The position numbers and the translations under genes are program-made. The notes beneath the pieces are model-generated. The model saw nothing but the letters and a program-made list of their open reading frames with translations. It searched no databases and had not been told where the DNA came from. Below are positions 28,160 through 44,049 of a DNA stretch of 44,128 nt, in pieces. The stretch comes from Dehalococcoidia bacterium. GTDB lineage: Bacteria; Chloroflexota; Dehalococcoidia; UBA2979. Each line of letters begins with the position of its first letter. Within the stretch, counting starts at the first letter, position 1. The stretch covers positions 1 through 44,128 of the forward strand of contig JAQWMB010000024.1 of the NCBI GenBank assembly GCA_029246995.1, in the 5' to 3' direction.

Positions 28160-28436
28160 TAAATTTAAACAAATCCATGCTATTGCAAAAGGACGTGTTC
28201 AACGAGTGGGATATCGTGCATTTTGCGTAGAAAATGCTACTGAACTTGGATTAATTGGATATTCACAGAATTTAACTAATGGAGATGTCCTTATTGTTGC
28301 TGAAGGTCCTGAAAGTGTCTTGAGAGAGTATGTTACTTTGCTACGGCAAGGCCCGAGGATGTCTAAGGTCAAAGAAGTTGAATTTCGTTGGGAAGAAGCC
28401 CAACAAGAATTTACTGGTTTTGAAATAAAATTGTAA
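28152..28436 (+). CDS. acyP: Acylphosphatase
   Basis: A 94-residue acylphosphatase hydrolysing carboxyl-phosphate bonds. The catalytic Arg is in GRVQRVGYRAF (the usual RVQGVGF with Arg for Gly) and the catalytic Asn in GYSQNLTNGDV. GTG at 28152 is chosen: AGGA precedes it by seven bases, it overlaps the aroKB stop by eight bases, and it gives the normal family length; ATG codons at 28113 and 28131 would add 13 and 7 residues within aroKB. The stop lies directly beside the moeA stop on the other strand. Confidence 0.93.
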   Translation: MSDKFKQIHAIAKGRVQRVGYRAFCVENATELGLIGYSQNLTNGDVLIVAEGPESVLREYVTLLRQGPRMSKVKEVEFRWEEAQQEFTGFEIKL

Positions 28437-29678
28437 TTACAGTAGTATCACTTTGACTTTTTTACCTTTATTGATTGATTTCTTATTAGACGGACATATT
28501 GCTAATCCATTGGCGAGAGACATTGATTGCAGGATACCAGAGCCTTGGTTTCCAGTTGTAGTTGCGTAATACTTATCCTTTGTTTTTTTTAATGACACTC
28601 TTGCATACACCTCTCTTCCATCAGCATTAATGATATTATTTTTTAGTATTGCCTCCACTGTTTGGAGGTTATTTGGATCTCGTCCCATCATTTTTAAAAT
28701 GGCAGGCTTAGCAAATATTTCAAAAGTGACCATTGCTGAAACAGGATTACCTGGCAGGCCTATATGAGGAACATGTTTTTGATCTTTGTCACGCAACATC
28801 CCAAACATTAAAGGTTTTCCTGGACGCATTTTTATCGACCAAAAATTCATCACGCCTTTTGTCATTAATACTGTTTTCATAAGATCGTAATCACCTTTTG
28901 ACACACCAGCAGAAGAAATTACGACATCTGATTTAGTAATTGCTAGTTGTATTTTCTTTTTTATGTCTGTTAAATTATCTTTTGCAATCTGTAAAACTAA
29001 AGGCTTTGCGCCAATTTTCAAAATTTGAGAAGCAAGCGAATAAGTATTTGAGTCATAAACTTGCCCAGGTTTAATAGGCTTAGGTGGGCGAATAATCTCA
29101 TCACCAGAAGAAATAATTGCTACTACTGGCTTTCTAATTACAGAAAGAGTTGCGATGCCAACAGAAGCAGCTAAGCCTATATGCGCTGGTTCCAGTGTTA
29201 TGCCTGCTTTAAGAATTACTTGTCCTTTTTTAGTATCTTCAGCTTTTCTTCTGATATTGTCCATTTTTTTAACTACTTTGTATAAGGTCACTTTAGTAGG
29301 AATATGCTTTGTTTGGGTAGTTAATTTATATTCATCAGTATCTTCAAATGGAATAACTGCATCTGCTCCATTAGGCACAACTGCCCCAGTCATAATTCGA
29401 ATTGCTTGTCCTTTTTGTAAAGTTTTTTTAAAGATATCACCTGCCTGAATAATGCCTACTATCTTTAGAGTCACTGGGTTTATATTAGCTCCAATGCTAT
29501 CACTAAATTTGATCGCATATCCATCCATGCTTGAGTTGTCCATTAAAGGAACATTGATTTTACTTTTAATGCTTTTTGCAAGGGTGTAATGGAGTGCATC
29601 TAACAACTTGACATCTATTGTGTCGAGTAATGTAATGTTTTCTAAAATGGTCTTTTGTGCCTTTTTAACTGTAAGCAT
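28437..29678 (-). CDS. moeA: Molybdopterin molybdotransferase
   Basis: Inserts molybdate into adenylylated molybdopterin. At 413 residues it has the full MoeA layout: NVPLMDNSSMDGYAI at the N-terminus, GDxI-type IRIMTGAVVPNGADAVIPFED, the MoaB/MogA-like core with SSGDEIIRPPKPIKPGQVYDSN and SSAGVSKGDYDLMK, and MRPGKPLMFGM with HIGLPGNPVSAMVTFE before the C-terminal domain. ATG 29678 is chosen over TTG 29690 because the TTG falls right behind the -10 element of a strong candidate promoter and would not be transcribed. It stands alone between convergent acyP and divergent pheS; no other cofactor genes are nearby. It implies at least one molybdoenzyme. Confidence 0.95.
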   Translation of the reverse strand: MLTVKKAQKTILENITLLDTIDVKLLDALHYTLAKSIKSKINVPLMDNSSMDGYAIKFSDSIGANINPVTLKIVGIIQAGDIFKKTLQKGQAIRIMTGAVVPNGADAVIPFEDTDEYKLTTQTKHIPTKVTLYKVVKKMDNIRRKAEDTKKGQVILKAGITLEPAHIGLAASVGIATLSVIRKPVVAIISSGDEIIRPPKPIKPGQVYDSNTYSLASQILKIGAKPLVLQIAKDNLTDIKKKIQLAITKSDVVISSAGVSKGDYDLMKTVLMTKGVMNFWSIKMRPGKPLMFGMLRDKDQKHVPHIGLPGNPVSAMVTFEIFAKPAILKMMGRDPNNLQTVEAILKNNIINADGREVYARVSLKKTKDKYYATTTGNQGSGILQSMSLANGLAICPSNKKSINKGKKVKVILL

Positions 29679-29691
29679 CTTGATGTTCAAC

Positions 29692-29720
29692 CTTATATAA
29701 TTATTTGTTAGGATTGTCTA
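29692..29720 (-). promoter_or_regulatory. Strong candidate sigma-70 type promoter of moeA
   Basis: On the minus strand TAGACA (29715-29720), a 17-base spacer and TATAAG (29692-29697) match the consensus at 5 of 6 bases each. The predicted start of transcription is only about six bases before the moeA ATG, so the mRNA would be nearly leaderless. Confidence 0.65.
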
Positions 29721-29789
29721 TTTAAACTTAATTTATCATACTAGATATGTAAGGATTCTTTGCTAAGTTTCTTTTTATATTTCTGTTAT

Positions 29790-29795
29790 TATAAT
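29790..29795 (+). promoter_or_regulatory. Candidate -10 element of pheST
   Basis: A perfect TATAAT lies 36 bases before the pheS start in the gap shared with moeA. The -35 region is AT-rich without a convincing hexamer. No attenuator or T-box structure is visible in the short leader. Confidence 0.4.
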
Positions 29796-29831
29796 TTTAA
29801 TAAGTTCATGAAGAAAAGTTGAAAATAACTA

Positions 29832-30836
29832 ATGTCATCGATGCAAGAACAGTTAAAAAATCTTAAAGACGAAGCAATTATTGCTTTAAACGAAATTAAT
29901 AACAAAGACAGCGTTATGCAATGGCGTTCTAAATATATAGGAAGAACCTCTAAATTAGCATCTGTTCTAAAAAATCTAAAAGACATTCCTCAAGAACAAA
30001 GAAAAGATGTAGGTCAATTAGTAAATGCAATTAAAAAAGATCTTGAATCAGCGTATTTACAAAGGATTGATGACTTGAACAATCTTGATATAGATACTCA
30101 TCCTTCTGTCGAAATAGATATCTCGTTACCTGGAATGCCTAGTCGCAATGGTGGATTACATCCAATTACTACAGCTTTAAATAAAACGCTTGATGTTTTA
30201 TCTAAATTAGGTTTTTCTTCAATAGAGGGACCAGAAGCAGAAACGAGTAAATATAATTTTGATAGCCTTAGAATACCTGATGATCATCCAGCAAGAGATA
30301 TGTGGGATACCTTTTGGTTAAATGCCTCTGATGCAGATGATCCATTGCTATTAAGAACTCATACAAGCCCTATGCAGATTAGATTTTTAGAAGAAAATGA
30401 TCCACCTATAAGAATCGCTGTTCCAGGTAAATGCTACAGGTACGAAGCAACTGATGCAACGCATGAGTGGATGATGCATCAGGTTGAGATATTAGCAATA
30501 GATAAAAATATTTCTATAAGTAATTTGAAAGGCACATTGCAATCATTTGCATATGAAATGTTTGGCTTGGATGCAAAGATAATGTTACGTAATTCATATT
30601 TTCCCTTTGTAGAACCTGGGGTTGAGATGGCTGTTTTTTTTCGTGGTCAATGGCTTGAGGTAATGGGAGCAGGGATGGTACATCCAGATATTATTAAAGC
30701 AGCAGGGTACGATCCATCTGTGTATACTGGCTTTGCTGCAGGCATGGGGATTGAACGCATTGCTATGTTGTTATGGGATATTGAAGATATTAGATATTTT
30801 TACCAAAATGACTTACGTTTTTTAAATAAGTTTTAA
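29832..30836 (+). CDS. pheS: Phenylalanyl-tRNA synthetase alpha subunit
   Basis: The 334-residue catalytic subunit of the alpha2beta2 PheRS. An N-terminal coiled coil (about residues 1-85) binds tRNA. The class II core shows GFSSIEGPEAETSKYNFDSL, LRTHTSPMQIRFL, GKCYRYEATDATHEWMMHQVE and, in motif 3, GFAAGMGIERIAMLLW. The ATG at 29832 lacks a strong ribosome binding site. pheT follows after 17 bases as in most bacteria. Confidence 0.97.
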   Translation: MSSMQEQLKNLKDEAIIALNEINNKDSVMQWRSKYIGRTSKLASVLKNLKDIPQEQRKDVGQLVNAIKKDLESAYLQRIDDLNNLDIDTHPSVEIDISLPGMPSRNGGLHPITTALNKTLDVLSKLGFSSIEGPEAETSKYNFDSLRIPDDHPARDMWDTFWLNASDADDPLLLRTHTSPMQIRFLEENDPPIRIAVPGKCYRYEATDATHEWMMHQVEILAIDKNISISNLKGTLQSFAYEMFGLDAKIMLRNSYFPFVEPGVEMAVFFRGQWLEVMGAGMVHPDIIKAAGYDPSVYTGFAAGMGIERIAMLLWDIEDIRYFYQNDLRFLNKF

Positions 30837-30853
30837 TGAAAGGCTAGTCATAC

Positions 30854-33298
30854 ATGTACGTATCCATGAATTGGATTAAAGAACACATTAAACTTTCGGA
30901 TGAAATATCTATTGATGAAATAGTAGATAAGCTAACCAAGGCATCAGTTGAAGTTGATGGAGTTCAAATAATAGGTGATTGGTGGGATACTACACTGATT
31001 CAAGTTGGTTTAGTAAAAGATATTAAGCCTCATCCAAATGCTGATAGATTACGCTTGGCTGATATTCAGCTTTCATCAAGTGATATACAGCGAGTTGTTT
31101 GCGGTGCTCCTAATTTAGCTGTGGGTCAAAAAATTATCTTTGCAAAGACTGGCTCAAAAGTTTTTAGTCCTAAAGATAATGAATATATGAAGTTGGAACA
31201 AGCCACAATTCGAGGAGTTGAGTCTAACGGAATGGTCCTTTCTGAGTCTGAGCTAGGAATCTCTGATAATCATGAAGGCATTTTAGTTTTAGACAATGAG
31301 TCTGAAATTGGCGTTTCTGCAAAAGATTTATTATCCGATGTCATTTTGGATGTCCATATATGGCCTAACAGACCAGATTTGATGAACATTATTGGAATTG
31401 CTAGAGAAATAGATTCAATTTTTAATAATGAATCTACTTTAAAACTACCAGAAATGAACTACGAAATTAAAGAAGATAAAAAAATTATTTTTCCTCAAAT
31501 CAAGGTTGATGATTATGCGCAATGTAGCAGATATATGGGTTTATTAATTAAGGATGTTACGATTGGAGAATCGCCAACTTGGCTGAAAGATAAGTTACGT
31601 TCAGTTGGCATGCGACCTATTTACAATGTAGTTGACATAACTAACTATGTAATGATGGAGCTAGGTCAACCACTTCATGCATTTGATTTTGATAAACTGA
31701 ATGGCTCTATTCAAGTTAGAAACGCAAAGGACAATGAGGTACTAACTACATTAGATGGTGAACTAAGGGAGTTGAATTCTGAAGATTTAGTGATTGCTGA
31801 TGATTCTGCTGTTATTGCTTTAGCAGGAGTCATGGGTGGGGCCAACTCAGATATTAATAATGATACAAACAGTGTCTTCTTAGAAGCTGCAAACTTTAAC
31901 CCAAATAGCATTAGAAGAACTTCACAAAAATATGATTTACGATCTGAAGCTTCAGCTCGTTTCGAACGAAACCTTCCACCATATCTTGCTGAAATTGCCA
32001 TTAAACGTGCTGCAAAATTGATAGAAGATATTTGTGGCGGGCACGCATGTCATGCGTTCGTGGACATCAATGACAAATTAGACTTAAATCCTCAATTAAT
32101 TGAAATGGATATTAATATAGTACGTCGTATATGTGGCATTGATGTTTCAGTAGATGAAGTTGTGGAAAAATTAAAGCTTCTTGGTTTTAAGCTACAATCT
32201 CATAATAAAGATATTTTACAAATCGAAATTCCTCTTTGGCGTACTGATGTACATATCATTGATGATTTAATTGAAGAATTTATTCGAATATATGGATATG
32301 ATACCGTGCCCTCAGTCCCTCTTAGTGGTGCCATACCAATGCATGATAAGCAAAACGTTGTTACTTTAAGAGATAATTTAAAAGACTTATTTGTGAACAA
32401 AGGATTCTATGAAGTTATTAATTATTCTTTAACAAAAAAAGAAAAAATTATTGATGTTCTTGGTGAAGAAGCTGTTACTGTCACTGTTCCAATAGAATTA
32501 AAAAATACACTATCTTCAGAACGTTCAGTGCTTCGAACTACAATGCGTCATTCTATCTTAGAAACAATTGATTATAATTTAAAAAATGGGCAAGAAAATA
32601 TTTGGATTTTTGAAGCAGGGCGGACGTATGCTTATAAAAATAAGAATCAGCAGGGTATTTATGAAAAAAGCCCTTTAGCAGAAGATGAATATATTGTGGG
32701 TGGCGTCTGCGCTAAGGATACTGACAGATTTGGCTTTAGTACTGATATGCCCATAAATTTTTTCGAAGTAAAGGGTATTTTGGAGTCAATTTTTTTAAAA
32801 ATGAAATTGATAGATCGATATATTGAGGCTGATATATTTGGGTTTACTCAAGAAGCAGCTGAAATACAAATAAATAATGAATCAATAGGCCTATTAGGCA
32901 TGATTGATTCTGCTACTTTGAAAAAATTTGATATCGCTGAAGAGGTTATTTTGTTTGAAATTAATCTGACAACTTTGCAATCACTTATTCAAGAGAGCAA
33001 TCACTTTGTTCCGTTTTCAAAATTCCCTGCTGTTATTAATGATATTGCACTGGTTGTGGATCAAAATATATCACATGAGCAAGTCTTAGAAGAACTAACT
33101 GATTCCCTACTAATTGTTAATGCTCAGTTATTTGATATTTATACAGGAGATCAAATTGATTCAAATAAAAAATCATTAGCTTTTAAGCTTACATTTCAAT
33201 CTCATGACAAAACATTAACTAATGATGAAGTCAAAGTAGAACAAGATAAAATTGTTGACAGAGTATCTAAAAAATTTGATGCAACCATTAGGCAATAG
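30854..33298 (+). CDS. pheT: Phenylalanyl-tRNA synthetase beta subunit
   Basis: The 814-residue beta subunit, which recognises tRNA-Phe and edits Tyr-tRNA-Phe. It begins with the usual MNWIKEHI segment, then a tRNA-binding EMAP-like domain (QVGLVKDIKPHPNADRLRL, VVCGAPN), the B3/B4 editing domain (YNVVDITNYVMMELGQPLHAFD), the B5 domain and a C-terminal ferredoxin-like anticodon-binding domain (FSKFPAVINDIALVVD). Two in-frame ATGs (30854 and 30866) are possible starts; AAAGG lies upstream of the first. It ends 15 bases from the convergent membrane-protein gene. Confidence 0.97.
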   Translation: MYVSMNWIKEHIKLSDEISIDEIVDKLTKASVEVDGVQIIGDWWDTTLIQVGLVKDIKPHPNADRLRLADIQLSSSDIQRVVCGAPNLAVGQKIIFAKTGSKVFSPKDNEYMKLEQATIRGVESNGMVLSESELGISDNHEGILVLDNESEIGVSAKDLLSDVILDVHIWPNRPDLMNIIGIAREIDSIFNNESTLKLPEMNYEIKEDKKIIFPQIKVDDYAQCSRYMGLLIKDVTIGESPTWLKDKLRSVGMRPIYNVVDITNYVMMELGQPLHAFDFDKLNGSIQVRNAKDNEVLTTLDGELRELNSEDLVIADDSAVIALAGVMGGANSDINNDTNSVFLEAANFNPNSIRRTSQKYDLRSEASARFERNLPPYLAEIAIKRAAKLIEDICGGHACHAFVDINDKLDLNPQLIEMDINIVRRICGIDVSVDEVVEKLKLLGFKLQSHNKDILQIEIPLWRTDVHIIDDLIEEFIRIYGYDTVPSVPLSGAIPMHDKQNVVTLRDNLKDLFVNKGFYEVINYSLTKKEKIIDVLGEEAVTVTVPIELKNTLSSERSVLRTTMRHSILETIDYNLKNGQENIWIFEAGRTYAYKNKNQQGIYEKSPLAEDEYIVGGVCAKDTDRFGFSTDMPINFFEVKGILESIFLKMKLIDRYIEADIFGFTQEAAEIQINNESIGLLGMIDSATLKKFDIAEEVILFEINLTTLQSLIQESNHFVPFSKFPAVINDIALVVDQNISHEQVLEELTDSLLIVNAQLFDIYTGDQIDSNKKSLAFKLTFQSHDKTLTNDEVKVEQDKIVDRVSKKFDATIRQ

Positions 33299-33313
33299 TT
33301 GGAATAAACTAGA

Positions 33314-33676
33314 TTAACCGTTTCGAGCTGATCGAAAAGACTTAATGCCATCAATTAAAAATAAAATTAAAGCAATGGATGTTATAGCACTTGCAAAGAC
33401 AGCCCAAGGACGTTCAGCATCACCTTTAATGAAATCAATGCCATCTGTTAATAGCATTGGAACGATACCAAGGATACCGATAAGAGCAACAGTGAGGGCT
33501 GCATGCATTGCATGTGGTCGTAATTTTTCATTGTTTGCAATATAGCCACAAAGAGCTAGTATTAATCCAAAAATACTTGGTATAAATGCTGATAAACTAC
33601 TGGTCCCACTTACAAGATATGTGAAGGGACCTAATAGTAATAGAATAATGCCATATCTGTATGCTGATTTTTGCAC
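33314..33676 (-). CDS. Small membrane protein of unknown function, 120 residues
   Basis: Not recognised. The 120-residue sequence has four likely membrane spans (about residues 9-26, 29-47, 57-78 and 88-107) with short basic ends (KSFRSARNG at the C-terminus). A glycine- and isoleucine-rich core without conserved charged residues suggests a structural or accessory membrane protein. GTG is the start: a perfect AAGGAG lies eight bases upstream. It starts 14 bases after the rplT stop, so it is expressed with the infC-rpmI-rplT operon, although no link to the ribosome is evident. Confidence 0.75.
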   Translation of the reverse strand: MQKSAYRYGIILLLLGPFTYLVSGTSSLSAFIPSIFGLILALCGYIANNEKLRPHAMHAALTVALIGILGIVPMLLTDGIDFIKGDAERPWAVFASAITSIALILFLIDGIKSFRSARNG

Positions 33677-33690
33677 GATGCATACTCCTT

Positions 33691-34041
33691 TTAATGATTT
33701 TTGGCAGTTTCTACGATTTCTTTAAAAGTATTTGGATTGTTAACAGCAATATCAGCAAGCATTTTACGATTCAAATTAATTCCTGCCTTGCTTATATTGT
33801 TAATAAATGTACTGTACGATACGCCATTTAACCTACAAGCTGCATTAATTCTGGTAATCCACAGACGTCTATAGTCACCCTTTTTCTTTCTTCTATGGAC
33901 GAATGCATAGTGTTGCGCATGAGTAAGTGACTCTCGTGCAACTTTATATGTTTTATGACGACGACCAGCATGGCCCTTTGTAAGCTTTAGAACAGCTTTA
34001 TGTCTTTGGTGTCCTGCTTTAGTATTTCTTGAACGTGTCAT
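33691..34041 (-). CDS. rplT: 50S ribosomal protein L20
   Basis: A 116-residue L20, an early assembly protein of the large subunit that in many bacteria also represses its own operon. The basic N-terminal tail ([19 protein letters not shown]) leads into the conserved [21 protein letters not shown] and the C-terminal [14 protein letters not shown]. It lies 15 bases after rpmI in the standard infC-rpmI-rplT order. No L20-binding leader structure could be identified by eye. Confidence 0.97.
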
Positions 34042-34056
34042 TTATTTCACCTATAG

Positions 34057-34263
34057 TTATTTAATTCCAGCATTTGGTAGCATTTTTTTAATTTTAGAAA
34101 CATGAGTCTTATGGACTGGACTCATTTTCTTTAAAGAATTTAACTTACTCCCACGCTTTTTCATTTTTTTATTATTTTTGTGATGACCAGTAATCAGCAC
34201 TTTGCCAGTACCAGTAATCTTGATGCGCTTCTTAAGACCTTTATGGGTTTTCATTTTTGGCAT
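34057..34263 (-). CDS. rpmI: 50S ribosomal protein L35
   Basis: A 68-residue L35. It begins with the family signature MPKMKTHKGLKKR, continues with a Lys-rich core and ends with the conserved KKMLP. ATG 34263 is the start because GGAA lies upstream at about eight bases and L35 proteins begin with this sequence; a TTG six codons upstream (34281) should be ignored. Its gap from infC (73 bases) is AT-rich and contains a 7-bp inverted repeat. Confidence 0.95.
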   Translation of the reverse strand: MPKMKTHKGLKKRIKITGTGKVLITGHHKNNKKMKKRGSKLNSLKKMSPVHKTHVSKIKKMLPNAGIK

Positions 34264-34316
34264 TTTAATATTCCAATTCAATAGTTAAAAATGATAACAG
34301 ATTTATATTTATAATC

Positions 34317-34335
34317 TATTTATATTAAATAAATA
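34317..34335 (-). repeat. 7-bp inverted repeat between infC and rpmI
   Basis: TATTTAT (34317-34323) and ATAAATA (34329-34335) flank ATTAA, right behind the infC stop. It is all A and T, so chance is a real possibility. Confidence 0.25.
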
Positions 34336-34336
34336 T

Positions 34337-34840
34337 CTATAGTGGGGCAAGTGTTGTTACTAAGGTTCTGCCTTCCATCGCAATGCTTTTTTCAATCAAA
34401 CACTGATCTTTTACTATTTCTAAGAATTTTTCTAGCAGCTCTTGCCCAATTTCAGGATGTGTAATTTCTCTTGCTCGAAACATCACTGAGACTCTTACTT
34501 TATTTCCAGCAGCTAGAAATTTCATTGCATTTCTTGCTTTGAGTTCCAAATCATGTTGTCCTATGCGGACTTTCATTCTAATCTCACGAACAACAATTTT
34601 TGTAGATGCTTTTTTATTTTCTTTTGCTTTTTTATTTTGCTGATATTTGAATTTGCCATAATCAATAATTTTGCATACTGGTGGCTTAGCTTTTGGCGAT
34701 ATTTCGATTAAATCTAAACCGCGATCTTCTGCTAGTTCAATTGCTTCATTGATGCTCAGCACTCCTATTTGTTCTTCTTCGCTTACCACTCTCACTTCTG
34801 GCGCCGTAATTTGTTTATTTATTTTTATATCTTTACTGAT
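34337..34840 (-). CDS. infC: Translation initiation factor IF-3 (AUC start)
   Basis: A 167-residue IF-3, which keeps 30S subunits free and proofreads initiation. The N-terminal domain has KDIKINKQITAPEVRVV and LSINEAIELAEDRGLDLIEISP; the C-terminal domain has VREIRMKVRIGQHDLELKARNA and the final EGRTLVT. The first ordinary codon (GTG 34795) would remove the first 15 conserved residues. The frame extends upstream to ATC at 34838-34840, exactly six bases after a perfect AAGGAG. IF-3 genes in E. coli and others use AUU-type starts that IF-3 itself discriminates against, giving autoregulation. ATC is therefore taken as the start, which implies the same control here. Confidence 0.93.
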   Translation of the reverse strand: MSKDIKINKQITAPEVRVVSEEEQIGVLSINEAIELAEDRGLDLIEISPKAKPPVCKIIDYGKFKYQQNKKAKENKKASTKIVVREIRMKVRIGQHDLELKARNAMKFLAAGNKVRVSVMFRAREITHPEIGQELLEKFLEIVKDQCLIEKSIAMEGRTLVTTLAPL

Positions 34841-34936
34841 TACATACTCCTTTTAAAATATTAACAAGTTAGAAAATCTTACCAAAGAAATAGAAAAATT
34901 CCATGCAAAAAATAATAAAGTTGCATCTATAAATTT

Positions 34937-35464
34937 TTATGAAGTAATGGGTTCGTAGTTAATAACGACATCACCTTTTTCAACTCGTGATAACTCTTCA
35001 AATGGAATTGAGGTAATTTTACCTTTTATAGGTATTTTAATTTCATTTTGCATTTTCATTGCTTCAACAATACATGTTGTTTCGCCGGCTTCAATAACAT
35101 CACCTACTTGTACATTAATTTTAGCTACTATACCTGCTAATGGTGCAGTAATGACTCCATCAGGATCGGCAGATCCACCACCAGCACTGGATTTTTTCTT
35201 CCCAGTAACATTAAATACTGGATAAAGAACATTGTTAATTGTTACAGTTTTTCCACCAGAAGCAGACTGAATAAATATGTCTATTGATTTATTATTTATA
35301 GATAGAGATATTTTTTTTCCTTGTTTATCTATTAGCTTATCAATTGAATATGTAGTTTCTTCTTTTGATTCAACGTTAGTTATTGATGCGGTGATATTGC
35401 CATCGTTTTCTTCAACGTGCACAGAATATATTACTCCATCAATAGATAGTTTACTTATTGCCAA
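34937..35464 (-). CDS. accB: Biotin carboxyl carrier protein of an acyl-CoA carboxylase
   Basis: A 175-residue biotin carrier. The last 75 residues form the biotinyl domain with PLAGIVAKINVQVGD and the biotin-attachment motif EAMKMQNE; the Lys of MKM is modified. The N-terminal half resembles the region found between biotin carboxylase and the biotinyl domain in fused acyl-CoA carboxylases, joined by a Gly/Ser linker (SSAGGGSAD). The start is TTG at 35464, six bases after AGGAG and overlapping the accC end by 10 bases. The partner carboxyltransferase is not in the window, so acetyl- versus propionyl-CoA specificity is open. Confidence 0.88.
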   Translation of the reverse strand: MAISKLSIDGVIYSVHVEENDGNITASITNVESKEETTYSIDKLIDKQGKKISLSINNKSIDIFIQSASGGKTVTINNVLYPVFNVTGKKKSSAGGGSADPDGVITAPLAGIVAKINVQVGDVIEAGETTCIVEAMKMQNEIKIPIKGKITSIPFEELSRVEKGDVVINYEPITS

Positions 35465-36993
35465 CCTGAGCTCCTAAAATCTCTTCTCATACTATAAATT
35501 CTTCCTGCTCGTGCCCAATTATTTGTTTCAGTTGTTGCTGGTGTACCAGTATTTTTAGAAGTAGAAAAGTTAGTTGACCATGCTGCAGCAATTAATGCAA
35601 AGTCGTTATTATCAGCAAAATCTTGTTTAGATGGCATGACAAAATTTTCTTCTAGCCAATTTGTATGAAAAGCTCCAGTAATGAATGCTTCGTTATTTAA
35701 TAGTTCTTGATGAAATGGAATATTGGTTTGAATGCCACCAATTTGTAATTCTATAAGGGCGCGTTGCATTCTAGCAATTGCTTCTTGGCGATCAACTCCC
35801 CATACTATTAATTTCCCAAGTAATGAATCATAAAATAAAGGAACATCCAAGCCTTCATAGATCATTGAATCAAATCTAACGCCTGGCCCATTTGGTAGCT
35901 CAAGGCTACCAATTAATCCAAGGGAAGGCATAAATTCACTGAATGGGTCTTCGCCGTTAATCCTGCATTCTATTGACCATCCACGAGGCGTCGGTTGTGT
36001 CGGGAATAATGTTGTTAACGATTCCCCTTGCGCTACTCTTAATTGAGTCTTTACGAGATCAACTCCATATACTAATTCTGTCACTGGATGTTCTACTTGC
36101 AATCTTGCATTTACCTCTAAGAAATAAAATTGTTTTGTTTTTTCATCTAGTAAAAACTCCACAGTACCAGCATTTTGGTAGTTGCATGATTTTGCTGCTT
36201 CTATTGCAGCGTTACAAATAGCAGTTCGTAACTCTTTATCAACTGCAGGTGATGGCGACTCTTCAATTAATTTTTGGTTTCGTCTTTGAATAGAGCAATC
36301 TCGTTCACCAAACGCGATAACGTTACCATGTGCATCAGCCATAATTTGTACTTCGATGTGCCTTGCCCCTGTGACGAATTTTTCTAAAAAGATGGTTGCA
36401 TCACCAAATGCAGAAGCCGCTTCGTTAGCAGCAAGATCAATAATTTCTAGTGCTTCTTTTTCATTTTCTATCAACCTAATACCCCTACCGCCACCACCAG
36501 CAGATGCTTTCACAAGCAGGGGAACGCCAATACGTTTAATTTCTTTTAAAATAGTTTTTGTATCTTTTCTATCTACATCATTTTTTCCTGGCGCAATAGG
36601 AACATTGGCTTTTTCCATTAATTCTCTAGCTGATGTTTTATTTCCTATAGCACGCATCGCACCAGCGCTTGGGCCAATGAAGGTAATTTTATTTTTTTCA
36701 CATGCTTCTGCAAATAGGGGGTTTTCTGATAAGAATCCATATCCTGGATGGATAGCATTTGCTTTTGTTTGTTTAGCAGCATCTATGATCTTATCTATTG
36801 ATAGATATGAGTTTGCTGATTCTGGAGGACCAATACATATTGACTCATCTGCATGACGAACATGCAGAGCATCTTCGTCCGCCTCTGAGTACACAGCAAC
36901 AGACTGAATACCTAATTCTTTACATGCACGTATTACTCGTAAAGCAATTTCACCACGATTTGCTATCAGCACTTTAGAAATTTTTTTAGGCAT
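35455..36993 (-). CDS. accC: Biotin carboxylase subunit of an acyl-CoA carboxylase
   Basis: Carboxylates biotin on the carrier protein using ATP and bicarbonate. The 512-residue sequence starts KKISKVLIANRGEIALRVIRA, then shows the ATP-grasp Gly-rich loop KASAGGGGRG, HIEVQIMADAHGN, ERDCSIQRRNQKLIEESP and the catalytic EVNARLQVEHPVTE. About 60 residues beyond the usual end of stand-alone AccC form a low-complexity tail (Asn/Thr/Ser-rich, ending RRDFRSSGWQ), as in alpha subunits of propionyl-type carboxylases. The ATG is three bases after the thrS stop. It is inserted with accB between thrS and infC, genes that are usually adjacent. Confidence 0.95.
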   Translation of the reverse strand: MPKKISKVLIANRGEIALRVIRACKELGIQSVAVYSEADEDALHVRHADESICIGPPESANSYLSIDKIIDAAKQTKANAIHPGYGFLSENPLFAEACEKNKITFIGPSAGAMRAIGNKTSARELMEKANVPIAPGKNDVDRKDTKTILKEIKRIGVPLLVKASAGGGGRGIRLIENEKEALEIIDLAANEAASAFGDATIFLEKFVTGARHIEVQIMADAHGNVIAFGERDCSIQRRNQKLIEESPSPAVDKELRTAICNAAIEAAKSCNYQNAGTVEFLLDEKTKQFYFLEVNARLQVEHPVTELVYGVDLVKTQLRVAQGESLTTLFPTQPTPRGWSIECRINGEDPFSEFMPSLGLIGSLELPNGPGVRFDSMIYEGLDVPLFYDSLLGKLIVWGVDRQEAIARMQRALIELQIGGIQTNIPFHQELLNNEAFITGAFHTNWLEENFVMPSKQDFADNNDFALIAAAWSTNFSTSKNTGTPATTETNNWARAGRIYSMRRDFRSSGWQ

Positions 36994-36996
36994 ATT

Positions 36997-38760
36997 TTAT
37001 TTTCCTGTTGTTATATTTAAGTCAAATGCTCTAGATGATTTTAAATCCATTAATGATGATAATATATCAGATCTGTCTAATTGTCCTAAATCATCACCAT
37101 TTCTTGTACGAACCGACACAGTATTTGATTCCATTTCTTGATCTCCAACAACAAACATAAATGGAATTTTCTTCATTTGTGCGTTTCTAATTTTTGCTCC
37201 CATTCGTTCACTGCTATCATCTACCGTAGCGCTAATCATCACTGATGCAAAATCTTTTTTAATCTCATAGCAGTAATCAACATGACTGTCTGTAATTGGA
37301 ATAATAGCGATTGGTATTGGAGATAGCCAAAAAGGCAGTTTCCCTGCAGTAAATTCTAGATAGATTCCAATAAACCTTTCCAATGAACCTAGTAATGCTC
37401 TATGAATCATGGTTGGTTCTTTTTCATTGCCATCATTACCAATATAGGTAAGATTAAACCGCTTTGGCATTGCTTGATCCAGCTGAATAGTCCCTAACTG
37501 CCAAGAACGATTCAATGCATCCTTGAGATGCATTTCTATTTTAGGTCCGTAGAATGCTGCTTCTGCTTCAGAAACTTCATATTTAAAACCAGCATCTGCT
37601 ACTGAATCCATCAGTAATTGTTCTGCAACATCCCAGTCTTTTGGATCGCCAATAAAATTTTCACCTCGTGTTGCGACGTACATTATTAAATTATCTAATC
37701 CTAAGATTTGATAAATTTCTTTGGTCATATCAAACAATTTACTAATTTCATCTTTTAATTGTTCAGCGGTACAAAAAATGTGTGCATCATCTTGCGCAAA
37801 CGAACGAGCTCTTGTTAATCCGTGCAGTACACCAGATCGTTCATTGCGATGTAATCTGGTAAATTCAGCAAGGCGCATTGGTAATTCACGATATGAATGT
37901 CTGCCATTATTATATAAAGCACAGTGACCTGGGCAGTTCATTGGCTTAATGCCCATTTCTTCATCTTCGATCGGCACTAAAAACATATCTCCATGAAAAT
38001 TTTCATAATGTCCAGAGGTTTTCCAGAGATCAGAATTAAACAGTTGCGGGGTGATTACTTCATCATAGCCATAGGTAAAATAAAGCTCACGTAGAAAGTT
38101 AGTGAGTTCGTTAAAGATAAAGGTTCCTCCAGGAAGAAAGAATGGAGAACCAGGAGAGATTGGATCGAGAAAAAATAGATCTAGTTCTTTTCCTAATCTT
38201 CTGTGGTCACGTGCTGCTGCTTCTTCTCGTGCTTTTAGATATGAATCCAATTCTTCTTGTGATGCGTAAAGGGCACCATATATTCTTTGTAACATTGGAT
38301 TGTTTTCATCACCTTTCCAATATGCACCAGCAACATGAGTGAGTTGAAAAGAACCTATTTGCCCGGTTGAATCAGCGTGGCCACCACGACATAGGTCTTC
38401 AAATTTACCATGTGTAAAATGCCCAACAGTATCTTCTTCAATGTCATCGATGAGTTCTAATTTGTATGGCTGATGTGCAAATATCTTTTTAGCATCTTTT
38501 TTTGAAATCTGCTCACCAGTAATCGGTACATTTCTCTTAACAGATTTCTTCATTCGTTTTTGTAGGACCGTTAGATCAGCTGGTGTGAGAGACCTAGGTA
38601 AATCAAAATCATAATAAAAGCCGGTGTCAATTGGTGGGCCAATAGCGTATTTTGCTTCAGGAAACATCTCTAAGACAGCTTCTGCAAGTACGTGTGCAGC
38701 CGAGTGTCGCATTTTTGCGAGTTCTTCTGCATTAGGTGCATTTGATTCTGCAGTGGCCAT
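36997..38760 (-). CDS. thrS: Threonyl-tRNA synthetase lacking the N-terminal TGS domain
   Basis: A 587-residue class II synthetase for tRNA-Thr. It starts almost directly with the editing domain (MRHSAAHVLAEAV, then HFTHGKFEDLCRGGH with its metal-binding type residues). The catalytic core follows: MNCPGHCALY with the zinc Cys, LHRNERSGVLHGLTRARSFAQDDAH, and MIHRALLGSLERFIGIYLE. The C-terminal anticodon-binding domain starts near PIPIAIIPI. The usual 60-residue TGS domain is absent and no upstream frame supplies it. ATG 38760 is preferred to the TTG four codons earlier because GGAA lies at the right distance. It is divergent from tRNA-Val and heads the thrS-accC-accB-infC block. Confidence 0.95.
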   Translation of the reverse strand: MATAESNAPNAEELAKMRHSAAHVLAEAVLEMFPEAKYAIGPPIDTGFYYDFDLPRSLTPADLTVLQKRMKKSVKRNVPITGEQISKKDAKKIFAHQPYKLELIDDIEEDTVGHFTHGKFEDLCRGGHADSTGQIGSFQLTHVAGAYWKGDENNPMLQRIYGALYASQEELDSYLKAREEAAARDHRRLGKELDLFFLDPISPGSPFFLPGGTFIFNELTNFLRELYFTYGYDEVITPQLFNSDLWKTSGHYENFHGDMFLVPIEDEEMGIKPMNCPGHCALYNNGRHSYRELPMRLAEFTRLHRNERSGVLHGLTRARSFAQDDAHIFCTAEQLKDEISKLFDMTKEIYQILGLDNLIMYVATRGENFIGDPKDWDVAEQLLMDSVADAGFKYEVSEAEAAFYGPKIEMHLKDALNRSWQLGTIQLDQAMPKRFNLTYIGNDGNEKEPTMIHRALLGSLERFIGIYLEFTAGKLPFWLSPIPIAIIPITDSHVDYCYEIKKDFASVMISATVDDSSERMGAKIRNAQMKKIPFMFVVGDQEMESNTVSVRTRNGDDLGQLDRSDILSSLMDLKSSRAFDLNITTGK

Positions 38761-38776
38761 ATTTAATTCCAATTCA

Positions 38777-38801
38777 ATTATATTAGTGTATAACGATCGT
38801 T
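38777..38801 (-). promoter_or_regulatory. Candidate thrS promoter with a 10-bp palindrome
   Basis: A perfect TATAAT on the minus strand (38777-38782) lies about 17 bases before the thrS ATG. Immediately upstream, where the -35 region should be, is the perfect palindrome AACGATCGTT (38792-38801). The -35 match is poor, so an activator or repressor site is possible. Confidence 0.35.
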
Positions 38802-38841
38802 CATTAACAGAAATTATATATTAATTTTTTATTTATTTACA

Positions 38842-38871
38842 TTGACTCTGGTCAGTATTACTAACTACGCT
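38842..38871 (+). promoter_or_regulatory. Candidate promoter of tRNA-Val
   Basis: A near-consensus -35 TTGACT (38842-38847) stands 18 bases from TACGCT (38866-38871), a weak -10. Transcription would begin a few bases before the tRNA. Confidence 0.4.
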
Positions 38872-38881
38872 GTGTAGACGT

Positions 38882-38958
38882 GGGCGGTTAGCTCAGTTGG
38901 TTAGAGCGCTTCGGTGACATCGAAGAGGCCACTGGTTCGAATCCAGTATCGCCCACCA
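38882..38958 (+). tRNA. tRNA-Val (anticodon GAC)
   Basis: A 77-base cloverleaf. The acceptor arm GGGCGGT pairs with ATCGCCC, with one G-U pair. The D arm is GCTC/GAGC. The anticodon stem CTTCG/CGAAG holds loop GTGACAT, giving anticodon GAC, which reads GUC and GUU. The T arm is ACTGG/CCAGT around TTCGAAT. The 3' CCA is encoded. The first lipoprotein gene starts 26 bases downstream on the same strand. Confidence 0.96.
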
Positions 38959-38984
38959 TAATTATCTTTTTTGAGCTCGTGTGT

Positions 38985-40889
38985 ATGAAAAAATTTGTTC
39001 TTATTGCCTCTATTTTATTTATTGCAGGATGCGGCAGTGATACCTCAGCACCACAAACAGCTACCTCAGCACCACAAACAGCTACGTCAGTACCAGAAAC
39101 AGATGCAGATCTTAACAAAAAATTTCTTATTCGTGATCCAAAAGACGTTGTATTGGCTAAAAATAATAAACAACTAACAAAGGCTATGAATTTAGTAGGG
39201 GGTGAATTTACAACAATTGTAGAATCAGATGGTGAGTGCGCACAACGAACACAATTATTTAGTGATGAAATCTCTGATCAAGCTCGCTTCAATCTAGAAG
39301 TTATTTTTGGCAAAAAATTTGATCAATTAAACAATAATGACATTAAGCAAATGATAAGTCTCAATTTACAATCAGAAGATACTTTGGATTGGAGTCAAGC
39401 TACATTTGGAGACACAAAAGTGCCTAGGACTGATTTATCCTCGTATGATGGCATAGAATATTTAACTTGCTTGCAATGGCTCAAATTTGGCGATTCTCTG
39501 AGCCGTGATTTTACTTTCTTAAGGAACTTGTCAGAGATACGATTTTTACATGCACAGTTTTTAACTCTTGGATATTTTAGAATAGTTGACCTACAATCAA
39601 TGACCAAAATTGAGAGCATCATTTTACCGAATAGATTTCTACAACTGCCGGCACTTGCACAATTTAATAGCCTCAAAAACATTGTTGCGAGCAATAGTGC
39701 AACATGTAATATCAAACCGCTGCTTGCAATGCCAAATCTTGAATATCTTGATCTCGAGGATTCTCAATATCATACATCGATAAAACTCCAAGAAAATAGA
39801 ATGAATTATCCATTCACCATGACCGCAGATCCTTCTGGCCAATATCTGCAATTGCTGACCAAAGGTGGAACAAGGCGATTTAATGCTGAGCCTGATTTTA
39901 CGTTATCAGAAGAAGAAACTGAAGGAACACATTATAACAAGCGATATCTCATGGAGGTCATGCAATCTATTTATGAGATAGCTCCAGATATATATGACGT
40001 TATTATCTTTGTAGGAAATGAAGATGAAAGTTTTGCATCTTATAGTGGAGAGGCTACAATGATTAGCAATAACACTCCAGGTATCGGTGATCCAATTTGG
40101 TCTGCAGCAGACTGCTATGGCTCAGAAGGACGCTTACGCGGCATGATTACATTCCCATCACCACAACACTTATTTAGTGTTGATGAATATAGCTGGAATA
40201 GCCCATTTACGCATGAATTATTGCATTTATGGGGAGGGGGGAATCTGCTACCATACTCTGAAGATACTAAAGGCATATTTACAGGAGGGCACTGGGGTGT
40301 AACCTCAGCTGACGGTATTTTAGGAGGCTTCAATAAAGGTTTCTTAGAAGAGGTTGAAACTAATGTCTATCGTGTAAATTATTTTAGCCATAATGGTAAT
40401 GCAGGTTTAGAAAGATCATTATCACCACTAGAGCAGTACTTTATGGGGATACTTCCAGCAGACTCAGTACCTGAGACTGTGATTATGCGTGGCGTACAAC
40501 AAACAGTAAATTCAAAAGGAGAAAAAGGCAATTCATGTGAAGCATACGGATATGAGTGGTGGGATGGATCATGTTTTAAAGCTGACAGCAAAGAGATACT
40601 TACAGTCGACCATATTATAAGAGTTTTTGGTGAACGTTCGCATGAAGGCAATGTTGAAATTTCTATGCTTGTTGTTGCTGTTAGCGAAGAGTCATTAACA
40701 GATCGTGAATGGGAGCAAATCACTCAACCTATATCATGGCTCTCATCAAATCAATACAGCACGCCAACTGATTACAAGATCCTTGATCCAATTTGGAAGG
40801 CTGCCAATGTGGATAAGCCAAAGAATTTATATGACGCATCTAACGGAGCAATTAAAGTAGTTTTCCCAAAACCAGAAATTGCTAGGTAA
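38985..40889 (+). CDS. Lipoprotein with LRR-like region and HExxHxxG metallopeptidase-like domain
   Basis: A 634-residue secreted lipoprotein: signal peptide MKKFVLIASILFIAGC with a lipobox Cys at 16, then a Thr/Ser/Pro linker made of three 7-residue repeats (TSAPQTA). Residues about 145-260 look like degenerate leucine-rich repeats (LRNLSEIRFL, LQSMTKIESIILP, LLAMPNLEYLDL). The C-terminal half contains HELLHLWGG at 410-418, an HExxHxxG zinc motif, followed by GGHWGVTSADG, whose His436 may be the third ligand, and then LSPLEQYFMGILP. I recall similar HExxH...HWG...S(P)xExYxMGxxP proteins from marine metagenomes but no characterised member. ATG 38985 fits the signal peptide; the ribosome binding site is weak. 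Base composition is visibly less AT-rich than the housekeeping genes. Confidence 0.75.
   Translation: MKKFVLIASILFIAGCGSDTSAPQTATSAPQTATSVPETDADLNKKFLIRDPKDVVLAKNNKQLTKAMNLVGGEFTTIVESDGECAQRTQLFSDEISDQARFNLEVIFGKKFDQLNNNDIKQMISLNLQSEDTLDWSQATFGDTKVPRTDLSSYDGIEYLTCLQWLKFGDSLSRDFTFLRNLSEIRFLHAQFLTLGYFRIVDLQSMTKIESIILPNRFLQLPALAQFNSLKNIVASNSATCNIKPLLAMPNLEYLDLEDSQYHTSIKLQENRMNYPFTMTADPSGQYLQLLTKGGTRRFNAEPDFTLSEEETEGTHYNKRYLMEVMQSIYEIAPDIYDVIIFVGNEDESFASYSGEATMISNNTPGIGDPIWSAADCYGSEGRLRGMITFPSPQHLFSVDEYSWNSPFTHELLHLWGGGNLLPYSEDTKGIFTGGHWGVTSADGILGGFNKGFLEEVETNVYRVNYFSHNGNAGLERSLSPLEQYFMGILPADSVPETVIMRGVQQTVNSKGEKGNSCEAYGYEWWDGSCFKADSKEILTVDHIIRVFGERSHEGNVEISMLVVAVSEESLTDREWEQITQPISWLSSNQYSTPTDYKILDPIWKAANVDKPKNLYDASNGAIKVVFPKPEIAR
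39042..39104 (+). repeat. 21-bp tandem repeat in the lipoprotein linker
   Basis: Two identical 21-base units (39042-39062 and 39063-39083) and a third diverged copy (39084-39104) encode TSAPQTA, TSAPQTA and TSVPETD just behind the lipid-modified Cys. It forms a flexible linker and can change length by slippage. Confidence 0.9.
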
Positions 40890-40943: not shown

Positions 40944-42959
40944 ATGAAAAAGATTGTATTCGTTATATCTATCCTTTTTATTGCAGCGTGTGGTGGTAAC
41001 GTGACTGACGAAGCCACGCCAGGGGCAATCGCGCAAGTTCAACCACTGTATTCTGGCACACTGTTTCTTTCACCAGACATATTGGATAATTCTGACCCGT
41101 CTTTTTTTGTGTCATTAGAGAAAATTACAGATGAACAAAGGAGAATGTTTGATAGAAGAAATGGCATGAATGAATCATATGGTGGCGGTAAATGGATAGA
41201 GACAGTTCCGTTTTTATTTATTGCGTATTTTTCTGATGGACAAGAAATTGAAGTGCAGGTAAATAAAGAATTTGAAAATGCAAATGCAGCACAAGAGGTT
41301 GCATTGCCATATCTAGATGCCATTGGTAAATTGCCCTCGTTATTCAGAAAAGACGTTGAAACAATCTGGCTGCATAAAGGCACGAAAGGCTTTGGAGGAG
41401 GTAATAATAATTTATTAATCCACCATGGCAGAGGATTAGAATATATGAAAGATGGCCTATTAGAGGAAGCATTTTTACATGAAGCATCGCACACTTCATT
41501 AGATCGCGAGCATGCTTCTTCAAAAGGGTGGTTAGCAGCTATGCAAGCTGATGGTGGTAATTTCATCTCAGATTATGCAAAAGAATACCCACAAGGAGAG
41601 GACATTGCAGAAACATTTCCAATATGTTTTGCTGTGCAGTATAAACCAGAGAGTTTGAAGAAAAGTGATATTCAAAAAATTAAAGAATCTATCCCAAATA
41701 GACTCGCATATTGCAATAAGGTTTTTGAACAATACGAACTGAATAAAGAAACAACACAACCTATTTCACAACAAGTGCCAAAAGTTCAAGTTCTAGAGAA
41801 AGAGCCTCTAGGCAAAAGCTGCACGCTGGCTAATGGTGAGATCGTTGAAGATGGTTGGCGAGGAAAAGGAGCTGGTAATAACTACTGTAATAATTGTTTC
41901 TGCTCAAATGGCATGCTTGGTTGTACAAAAATGGCTTGTCCTCCACTTGAAACGAAAATGAAAATACAATCTGATATGATCAAAGGTGGACAGATAGAAA
42001 GAATAAATCCATCAAATAATACTATCACTGTTCATTTTGCAAAAATGGATGGAACACCAGATGTAATCATGGATGATATTCGTCAAGGAATATTAGATAG
42101 CAGCCAGCTGCTACCAATTAATGAAGAGAGCAGTGGTGTAACATCTGGTGATTTATATGTCACAGTCTGGCATACAGATAAATCTGATCACGCTGCTGTT
42201 GTTGAATATCGTTGCACATATACACCATATTGCTCTGAAGAACATAAACAAGATCTAATACGTCGCAGTGCAACACAAGGTATTGGTGCTGCCATGCTCT
42301 CAGATGAACAACCTATTTTTGAAATTGTATGGCGTACTAATGATCAGCATGAGTTTTTGCCAGAAAGCCCGTGGGTGGTTGCTGGACATGAATGGACGCA
42401 TACATTCCAAAGTGCAAATATTGTCAATGCACCGTTAGCTAATTCATTCGGATTAGAAACTGTGCCACGCACTGGACCGATATGGTTGCTTGAAGGAACA
42501 GCTGATTTTATTGGTAGATTGATTGCACAAGAGAAGCGTGCTGTTGTAGAAGGATATGATGTACGCCAACGTTCAAAAGAAGCCATTCAATTTACAACAG
42601 ATATGTTTAAGATGAGCCCGCAAATCCAAGCAAATGATGTATTATCACAATGCGAAAGTCCAGCAAATCAAATTGCTTTTGAAGCTCAAGCAGGCGGTCA
42701 GGTAGATCCCTCGTGGCCGTGTGTATCTGGCTCCTCAGCCATCAATTATTTAATGCATTTAAATGAGGCTCAGAGCATCAATAGAATTCATCGCTTTTAT
42801 GCAGATATATCGAGCATTGGTTGGCAAGCGTCATTCCAAAGAAATTATGGGCGGACAATAGAAACGTTTTATGAAGAGTTTGGTAATTTTCTTACTAACT
42901 CAATGCCGGAGAAACATGCTGTAATAGATGATCTGTATGCATCGCTCACTTTGAACTAA
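40944..42959 (+). CDS. Lipoprotein with two metallopeptidase-like domains and a pacifastin-like module
   Basis: A 671-residue lipoprotein: signal MKKIVFVISILFIAAC with lipobox Cys16. Domain 1 (about 35-260) has HEASH at 179-183, then GWLAAMQADGGNFISDYA and GEDIAETF with a possible third ligand Glu219 or Glu223; this resembles the anthrax-lethal-factor/gluzincin pattern. Residues 293-332 hold six cysteines (293, 315, 318, 320, 327, 332) in CNNCFCSNGMLGCTKMAC, matching the pacifastin protease-inhibitor (LCMII) pattern CNxCxC...GCTxxxC. Domain 2 (about 340-671) has HEWTH at 482-486 and WLLEGTADF with Glu517, the gluzincin HExxH...E layout; Cys pairs 424/430 and 570/593 may form disulfides. All active-site residues are kept. 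Its substrate is unknown. It lies 54 bases after the other metallopeptidase-like lipoprotein. Confidence 0.75.
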   Translation: MKKIVFVISILFIAACGGNVTDEATPGAIAQVQPLYSGTLFLSPDILDNSDPSFFVSLEKITDEQRRMFDRRNGMNESYGGGKWIETVPFLFIAYFSDGQEIEVQVNKEFENANAAQEVALPYLDAIGKLPSLFRKDVETIWLHKGTKGFGGGNNNLLIHHGRGLEYMKDGLLEEAFLHEASHTSLDREHASSKGWLAAMQADGGNFISDYAKEYPQGEDIAETFPICFAVQYKPESLKKSDIQKIKESIPNRLAYCNKVFEQYELNKETTQPISQQVPKVQVLEKEPLGKSCTLANGEIVEDGWRGKGAGNNYCNNCFCSNGMLGCTKMACPPLETKMKIQSDMIKGGQIERINPSNNTITVHFAKMDGTPDVIMDDIRQGILDSSQLLPINEESSGVTSGDLYVTVWHTDKSDHAAVVEYRCTYTPYCSEEHKQDLIRRSATQGIGAAMLSDEQPIFEIVWRTNDQHEFLPESPWVVAGHEWTHTFQSANIVNAPLANSFGLETVPRTGPIWLLEGTADFIGRLIAQEKRAVVEGYDVRQRSKEAIQFTTDMFKMSPQIQANDVLSQCESPANQIAFEAQAGGQVDPSWPCVSGSSAINYLMHLNEAQSINRIHRFYADISSIGWQASFQRNYGRTIETFYEEFGNFLTNSMPEKHAVIDDLYASLTLN

Positions 42960-43974: not shown

Positions 43975-44049
43975 GGGCTTGTAGCTCAGTGGTAGAGCAG
44001 TCGCCTCTTAAGCGATTGGCCGTGGGTTCGAATCCCACCGGGCCCACCA
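43975..44049 (+). tRNA. tRNA-Lys (anticodon CTT)
   Basis: A 75-base cloverleaf. The acceptor arm GGGCTTG pairs with CGGGCCC, including two G-U pairs. The D arm is GCTC/GAGC. The anticodon stem GTCGC/GCGAT holds loop CTCTTAA, giving anticodon CTT for AAG codons. The T arm is GTGGG/CCCAC around TTCGAAT. The 3' CCA is encoded. A run of seven T follows four bases later, without a separate hairpin. Confidence 0.96.

Follow-up and report, generated by a model that had tools for sequence, protein, structure and literature searches.

How one bacterial lipoprotein comes to carry two HExxH domains with a small cysteine-rich knob between them is the question raised by the gene P0001, and with it whether the arrangement is an evolved design or the trace of a recent rearrangement. 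The window, the whole stretch of DNA analysed, is 44,128 nucleotides long and belongs to a genome of 1.19 Mb in 31 contigs, 89% complete. Here, G000 denotes the window genome, G001 the sister genome Anck29-46, and L003 the 13.8 kb locus region of the latter. The host, a small marine member of the Chloroflexota, is a relative of the AncK29 clade. Anck29-46 itself is described as an Arctic Ocean MAG from the AncK29 clade of Chloroflexi, of 1.11 Mb and 32% GC (PMC6123686); the GC content of the window, 29-39% per 2 kb, agrees with the value for that clade.

Reading of the open frame and its translation places every element named in the initial annotation where it had been claimed: the lipobox, HEASH, GEDIAE (residues 218-223), the six cysteines (293, 315, 318, 320, 327 and 332), HEWTH and WLLEGTADF (Table 1). 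Sequence profiles and the conserved zinc motifs likewise back its description of the protein as a lipoprotein (judged by eye) that carries a pacifastin-like module and a pair of HExxH domains. The lipobox cysteine, Cys16, marks P0001 as a putative bacterial lipoprotein that is presumably anchored outside the membrane. The full-length structure model of P0001 has a pLDDT of 34.2.

Table 1. Coordinates of P0001, its parts and the adjoining features in the window
Feature	Position	Strand	Remarks
Fused lipoprotein gene P0001	40944..42959	+	Single open frame, 671 aa
Signal peptide, lipobox-like LFIAAC ending at Cys16	40944..40991	+	Recognised by eye
N-terminal HExxH domain tract	41033..41762	+	93.7% nt identity to sister-genome gene 1 (L003 9864-10593)
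HEASH, residues 179-183, putative zinc site 1	41478..41492	+	Invariant in 14 covering rows, 16 aligned
EDIAE, residues 219-223, candidate third zinc ligand(s) of site 1	41598..41612	+	E219, D220, E223 invariant in 14 covering rows of 16
Fusion junction, 8-bp microhomology CACAACCT	41755..41762	+	Overlap of two alignments to L003
155-bp cassette holding the pacifastin-like module	41797..41951	+	Second copy at G000:C17, 94% nt identity, unrelated flanks
Six-cysteine pacifastin-like module, residues 293-332, loops 21-2-1-6-4	41820..41939	+	Predicted P1-P1' K-M
C-terminal M61/MA-clan-like domain, residues 340-671	41961..42956	+	Profile matches; M61 similarity weak, below cut-off
HEWTH, residues 482-486, putative zinc site 2	42387..42401	+	Invariant, 13/13 rows
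WLLEGTADF from residue 514; E517 = presumed third zinc ligand of site 2	42483..42509	+	W514, E517, G518, A520 invariant, 13/13
Upstream lipoprotein P0002 (LRR-like part and HELLH)	38979..40889	+	53% aa identity over 598 aa to sister-genome relative
tRNA-Val(gac) bordering the variable lipoprotein locus	38882..38958	+	Same place in L003

The same locus in the sister genome (QGNP01000005.1) contains two lipoprotein genes after thrS and tRNA-Val, and precedes an RRM gene in which the sister contig ends. Gene 1 encodes 805 aa, comprising the N-domain with HEASH and a further 524-aa part, X; gene 2 encodes 445 aa, comprising a signal peptide, the module and a HEWMH domain. The N-terminal tract of P0001 aligns with gene 1 over 730 bp, and window positions 41755-41944 align with gene 2, past its signal peptide, over 190 bp at 94.2% identity. 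The two alignments overlap by exactly CACAACCT, a sequence that both strands of L003, 13.8 kb in all, contain at these two source points and nowhere else, and that is present in the window once per strand. The two copies in L003 lie 1729 bp apart, one base more than a multiple of three; the gene starts are offset with the same remainder, and for this reason the join is in frame.

The evolved three-part design that had been proposed for this protein is not borne out. The sister genome has two genes where the window has one open frame, and P0001 very probably arose recently by the in-frame fusion of two adjacent genes. A whole-protein search of 60 relatives matched 6. Open frames were read at 13 of the 15 places matching the N-domain; some of these frames are truncated at the end of a contig, and the C-domain is present in the window's frame only. 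The two short remaining matches (L036 and L039) contain no ORF. The fused form is known from one MAG contig. Two HExxH sites per chain are not unique, as an 800-aa protein present in both genomes has two.

The other genomes read have the N- and C-domains on separate proteins, which makes a deletion between short repeats the simplest account, and we infer that the change was a deletion in the window lineage and not an insertion in the sister. The converse would be that an ancestral fused gene was split in the sister by a 1.7-kb insertion that duplicated its 8-bp target. An 8-bp direct repeat around extra DNA does resemble a target-site duplication, and part X was not found in the window genome, in a search run without a positive control. 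Such an insertion must nevertheless provide the second half with a suitable lipoprotein signal peptide, and no transposase is seen in X (L003 10594-12165, 524 aa), which has no Pfam match at E<=0.1. With the two domains on separate genes in the other genomes read, this origin of the two-gene state is improbable.

The DNA on either side of the junction differs sharply from its surroundings. Window and sister are 72% identical over 27745-39054 (11.5 kb), a background that applies to the upstream side only, because the downstream comparison consists of 61 bp of the RRM gene at 98% identity. The best upstream windows of matching length reach 80.4% (730 columns) and 85.8% (190 columns). Set against this background, identity of ~94% across the N-domain and module argues that this DNA was exchanged recently. 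Synonymous divergence (Nei-Gojobori, own script) follows the same division, with dS of 1.78 for thrS, 0.20 for the N-domain and 0.19 for the linker and module. The C-domains of window and sister share 42% amino acid identity and are saturated for synonymous change, which points to a recent common source for the first two parts but not for the C-domain. In the C-domain tree the window and sister rows join without support, which fits rapid vertical divergence of the C-domain as well as its replacement.

A fusion known from one MAG contig could also be an artefact of assembly or binning. In favour of this are the second module copy, 94% identical and in the same genome, and a contig part 94% like another species amid a 72% upstream background. 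Against it, the tracts meet in one open frame with no stop, and assemblers are not known to join reads on 8 bp. The two genomes share mosaic tracts at other places as well, for example 6.4 kb at 91% identity between G000:C28 (L064 7078-13410) and G001:C5 (L065 7112-13474), where the adjoining stretches are 67-81% identical and one 250-column stretch within the tract reaches up to 100%. We regard an artefact as very unlikely. By eye, the genes of the 6.4-kb tract encode ABC-transporter-like proteins, the 800-aa protein with HEFYH and HEYIH, and a YgjP-like protein with HELSH.

The central cysteine block is more than a chance likeness to pacifastin. Pacifastin_I (PF05375) matches residues 313-338 across profile positions 10-36 of 40, at E 6.4e-7 and 29.4 bits against the Pfam cut-off of 27.9, and pacifastin matches occur at two places in the whole window genome and in none of 14 control genomes. 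The pacifastin consensus is given as C1-x9-12-C2-N-x-C-x-C-x2-3-G-x3-6-C-T-x3-C in PMC2689174. The module follows it from C2 to C6, where CNNCFCSNGMLGCTKMAC satisfies C2-N-x-C3-x-C4-x2-3-G-x3-6-C5-T-x3-C6, and departs from it at the C1-C2 loop, which is too long. At 21 residues this loop fits neither the 9-12 of the 'Conventional' class nor the 13-20 of the 'Ancestral' class, one above the upper limit, as these ranges are given in PMC13388995. The 'Ancestral' class was published there in 2026, with members in animals, fungi, Myxobacteria and CPR bacteria. Because the first loop exceeds the published range, the module is named pacifastin-like here and not a certified member; the MEROPS I19 label was the initial annotation's own naming. 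In a pacifastin fold the six cysteines would be paired as C1-C4, C2-C6 and C3-C5.

A profile of six bacterial modules has 10 matches at E<=1 among PDB sequences. Seven of these are inhibitors of proteases, 33-38 residues long; two carry the name pacifastin and the remaining five presumably belong to that family. The best is SGPI-1 (E 0.0038), and the inhibitor matches cover C2-C6. Two hepatocyte growth factor chains score nearly equally (E 0.0046 and 0.0052) on another part of the profile. The profile also touches iota-carbonic anhydrase (7c5x) at residues 406-421 (E 0.034), corresponding to window 41829-41876 in the first loop; this is perhaps a distant hint of that loop in another protein.

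The inhibitor-like profile of the module competes with a second reading, in which the knob is a binding module of VWC/fibronectin-I-like type, fixing the enzyme to polymers, particles or partner proteins and having no inhibitory action. The long first loop, unlike that of inhibitor-type pacifastins, favours such a module, as does a weak Pfam VWC (PF00093) match on the same residues; at E 0.01 and 16.6 bits the latter remains below its cut-off of 27.6 and is beaten by the 29.4 bits of pacifastin. No VWC chain is among the 10 PDB matches of the module profile, and the pacifastin marks, Asn after C2 and Thr after C5, are present in all six aligned six-cysteine modules. The AF2 model of the module consists of beta strands only (pLDDT 59.7), and a PDB fold search with this low-confidence model returns 35 rows at E<=10, none of them at E<=0.001; fibronectin type I and VWC are among the upper rows beside MDA5 and Hfq, every E being 2.9 or worse.

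The predicted P1-P1' pair K-M of the window module is replaced by E-M in its two nearest copies. P1 varies between Lys and Glu, which speaks for binding, and Glu in the closest relatives makes a poor fit to a conserved trypsin inhibitor. In PMC13388995, the K-M pair is enriched in the 'Ancestral' class, E-M is noted among non-metazoan pairs, and multidomain 'Ancestral' proteins (78 of 239) are tied chiefly to adhesion domains, a point in favour of binding. Elsewhere the module is found on lipoproteins without an HExxH motif, which points the same way. A serine-protease inhibitor is a plausible identity for the knob, if somewhat short of an even chance. A binding role is nearly as likely, and a VWC/fibronectin-I-like module without inhibition is a possibility to be taken seriously.

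The module may also move as a unit. Its second copy at G000:C17 sits in a 140-aa zinc-ribbon/TM protein (zinc ribbon below the Pfam cut-off, TM by eye), which adjoins a 415-aa lipoprotein with HEYFH. The dS between the two window-genome copies, 0.11, is lower than the 0.24 between window and L003, which suggests that the G000:C17 copy was made later and within the window lineage, on counts of just 3 and 6 synonymous differences. No convincing repeats were found at the cassette edges. The genus carries five known module copies, two in G000 and three in G001, all inside or adjoining an HExxH protein; two of the five have four cysteines only. Across the class, 5 of 393 genomes match, four of them above cut-off and three beyond the genus, and a later module search added genome G739 (a match, not gene-level). 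Beyond the genus, its carriers are lipoproteins (by eye) in which the module accompanies a coiled-coil-like part, stands by itself or is joined to a YceI domain; the four regions read there contained no HExxH motif among their ORFs of at least 80 aa, overlap-filtered. In a phylum draw of 400 genomes the window genome is the sole module match, the other known carriers evidently lying outside the draw. Viral contigs yielded no confirmed relative of the module, N-domain or C-domain, and phage and plasmid records gave no match with the window's module as query.

Doubtful, though worth stating, is the idea that the 155-bp cassette travels as DNA from one surface lipoprotein gene to another in the same genome and, in company with peptidase domains, from species to species, by exon-shuffling-like recombination at a variable locus beside a tRNA gene. 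If true, free-living marine bacteria would build new protease/inhibitor-type chimeras in this way. In two genomes (L057 4088-5551 and L058 4010-5440), a lipoprotein that adjoins a module lipoprotein and converges with it has a sub-threshold Trypsin_2 match (E 0.0017 and 0.0024), with GxSGG seemingly absent by eye. These matches are not counted here as evidence for a trypsin target adjoining the module.

The two peptidase-like domains differ in how near they come to named families. In the window protein, neither of them scores above any Pfam or NCBIfam cut-off. The N-domain was found in 12 of 393 class genomes and in one Verrucomicrobiota MAG. In its alignment of 16 rows, counting fragments and two rows of one locus, H179, E180, H183, H190, E219, D220 and E223 are kept in all 14 rows covering each. 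The N-domain thus has an HExxH motif and a conserved distal acidic residue, as in MA-clan zinc peptidases; since H190 is invariant as well, the third ligand of site 1 is a candidate among H190, E219 and E223. The window row has no Pfam match even at E 10, one of five N-domain rows touches Peptidase_Mx1 at E 0.17, and the N-domain appears to be an HExxH family that is unrecognised by any Pfam model in these searches. Its profile has no significant PDB relative, the N- and C-domain profiles giving one chance-level match each. A protein kinase chain, 3py9, matched residues 77-251 in a whole-protein phmmer search of the PDB (E 0.0014) and was taken as chance, because the N-domain profile does not recover it.

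The C-domain profile matches 54 of 393 class genomes at E<=0.001, many of them partially. H482, E483, H486, W514 and E517 are kept in all 13 aligned rows, so that an HExxH motif and a conserved distal Glu are present, as in MA-clan gluzincins. M61 (PF05299) matches at E 0.019, with 15.8 and 17.2 bits against a cut-off of 22, and M9 collagenase is touched by two of six C-domain rows (best E 0.0034). One or both domains could be catalytically dead, or binding or scaffold domains and not peptidases: no known peptidase family is reached at cut-off, and site 1 has three candidates for its third ligand. The zinc motifs are nevertheless invariant in all covering rows, across several class families and one Verrucomicrobiota MAG for the N-domain and across two families for the C-domain. 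This makes inert domains unlikely, and each HExxH domain is likely to be catalytic.

The lipoprotein locus lies between tRNA-Val and tRNA-Lys (43975-44049), and its tRNA-Val border is common to the sister genome, whose contig stops short of the opposite border. P0002, upstream, has no Pfam match; its relative in G001:C13 ends, at the C-terminus, in a degenerate module of four cysteines, and the 102-aa lipoprotein that comes next bears this degenerate module too. In genome G021 (L007), an N-domain gene lies divergently beside the start of a C-domain-like gene that is cut by the contig end, making the two families neighbours in another genus too.

The proposed origin of P0001 involves two steps. 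First, the window lineage would have acquired by recombination a piece of DNA containing the lipoprotein gene for the N-terminal HExxH domain together with the beginning of a neighbouring module-plus-peptidase gene. Next, the ~1.73 kb between the two CACAACCT repeats would have been lost, joining the N-domain in frame to the module and the C-terminal HExxH domain and leaving one signal peptide. The resulting protein would most likely hold two zinc peptidases at the cell surface and expose a knob of serine-protease-inhibitor-like or binding character. In this arrangement, membrane-anchored P0001 would cut environmental proteins or peptides outside the cell. The module would form an exposed disulfide knob whose C5-C6 loop (TKMA, P1 = Lys) could bind foreign trypsin-like serine proteases, which may protect the enzyme or capture the proteases as substrate. 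As a whole explanation, a mosaic surface lipoprotein combining fusion, paired zinc peptidases and an inhibitor-type knob is moderately probable.

The locus would thereby represent domain shuffling caught soon after the event, with ~94% identical surface-protein pieces in a 72% upstream background and an 8-bp in-frame join. The module set among zinc-peptidase-like domains also makes the choice between inhibitor and adhesin approachable with small soluble proteins. That such a module is unexpected in bacteria, as first proposed, is weakened by the pacifastin-like domains reported in Myxobacteria and CPR bacteria in PMC13388995, whose main text does not contain 'chloroflex'. The present module would add Chloroflexota to these bacteria. 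Searches of the literature collection used returned nothing on pacifastin in Chloroflexi or on an architecture of pacifastin, lipoprotein and metallopeptidase, the papers that did appear dealing with shrimp and, by title, insects, and nothing relevant on SAR202 peptidase lipoproteins, on the module sequence, or on bacterial VWC/metalloprotease domain shuffling.

Comparison with known systems places each part of P0001 near a different family. Zinc metallopeptidases combine HExxH with a distal ED-x-x-E, and the N-domain likewise has both while belonging to no named family. The C-domain shares with M61 glycyl aminopeptidase and with the MA-clan gluzincins an HExxH motif 31 residues ahead of the Glu in WxxEG-x-A; it differs from M61 in its score, 17.2 bits being the better of its values against PF05299. 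VWC and fibronectin type I modules have a longer first loop and then a CxxCxC core, an arrangement that the module of P0001 shares, although its VWC score is far under the cut-off (16.6 vs 27.6 bits). Like the 'Ancestral' pacifastins, the module has six cysteines, the CNxCxC-x2-G-x3-CTxxxC pattern, a predicted K-M pair and a multidomain setting. It differs from them in its 21-residue C1-C2 loop, its Chloroflexota host and its position between two HExxH domains.
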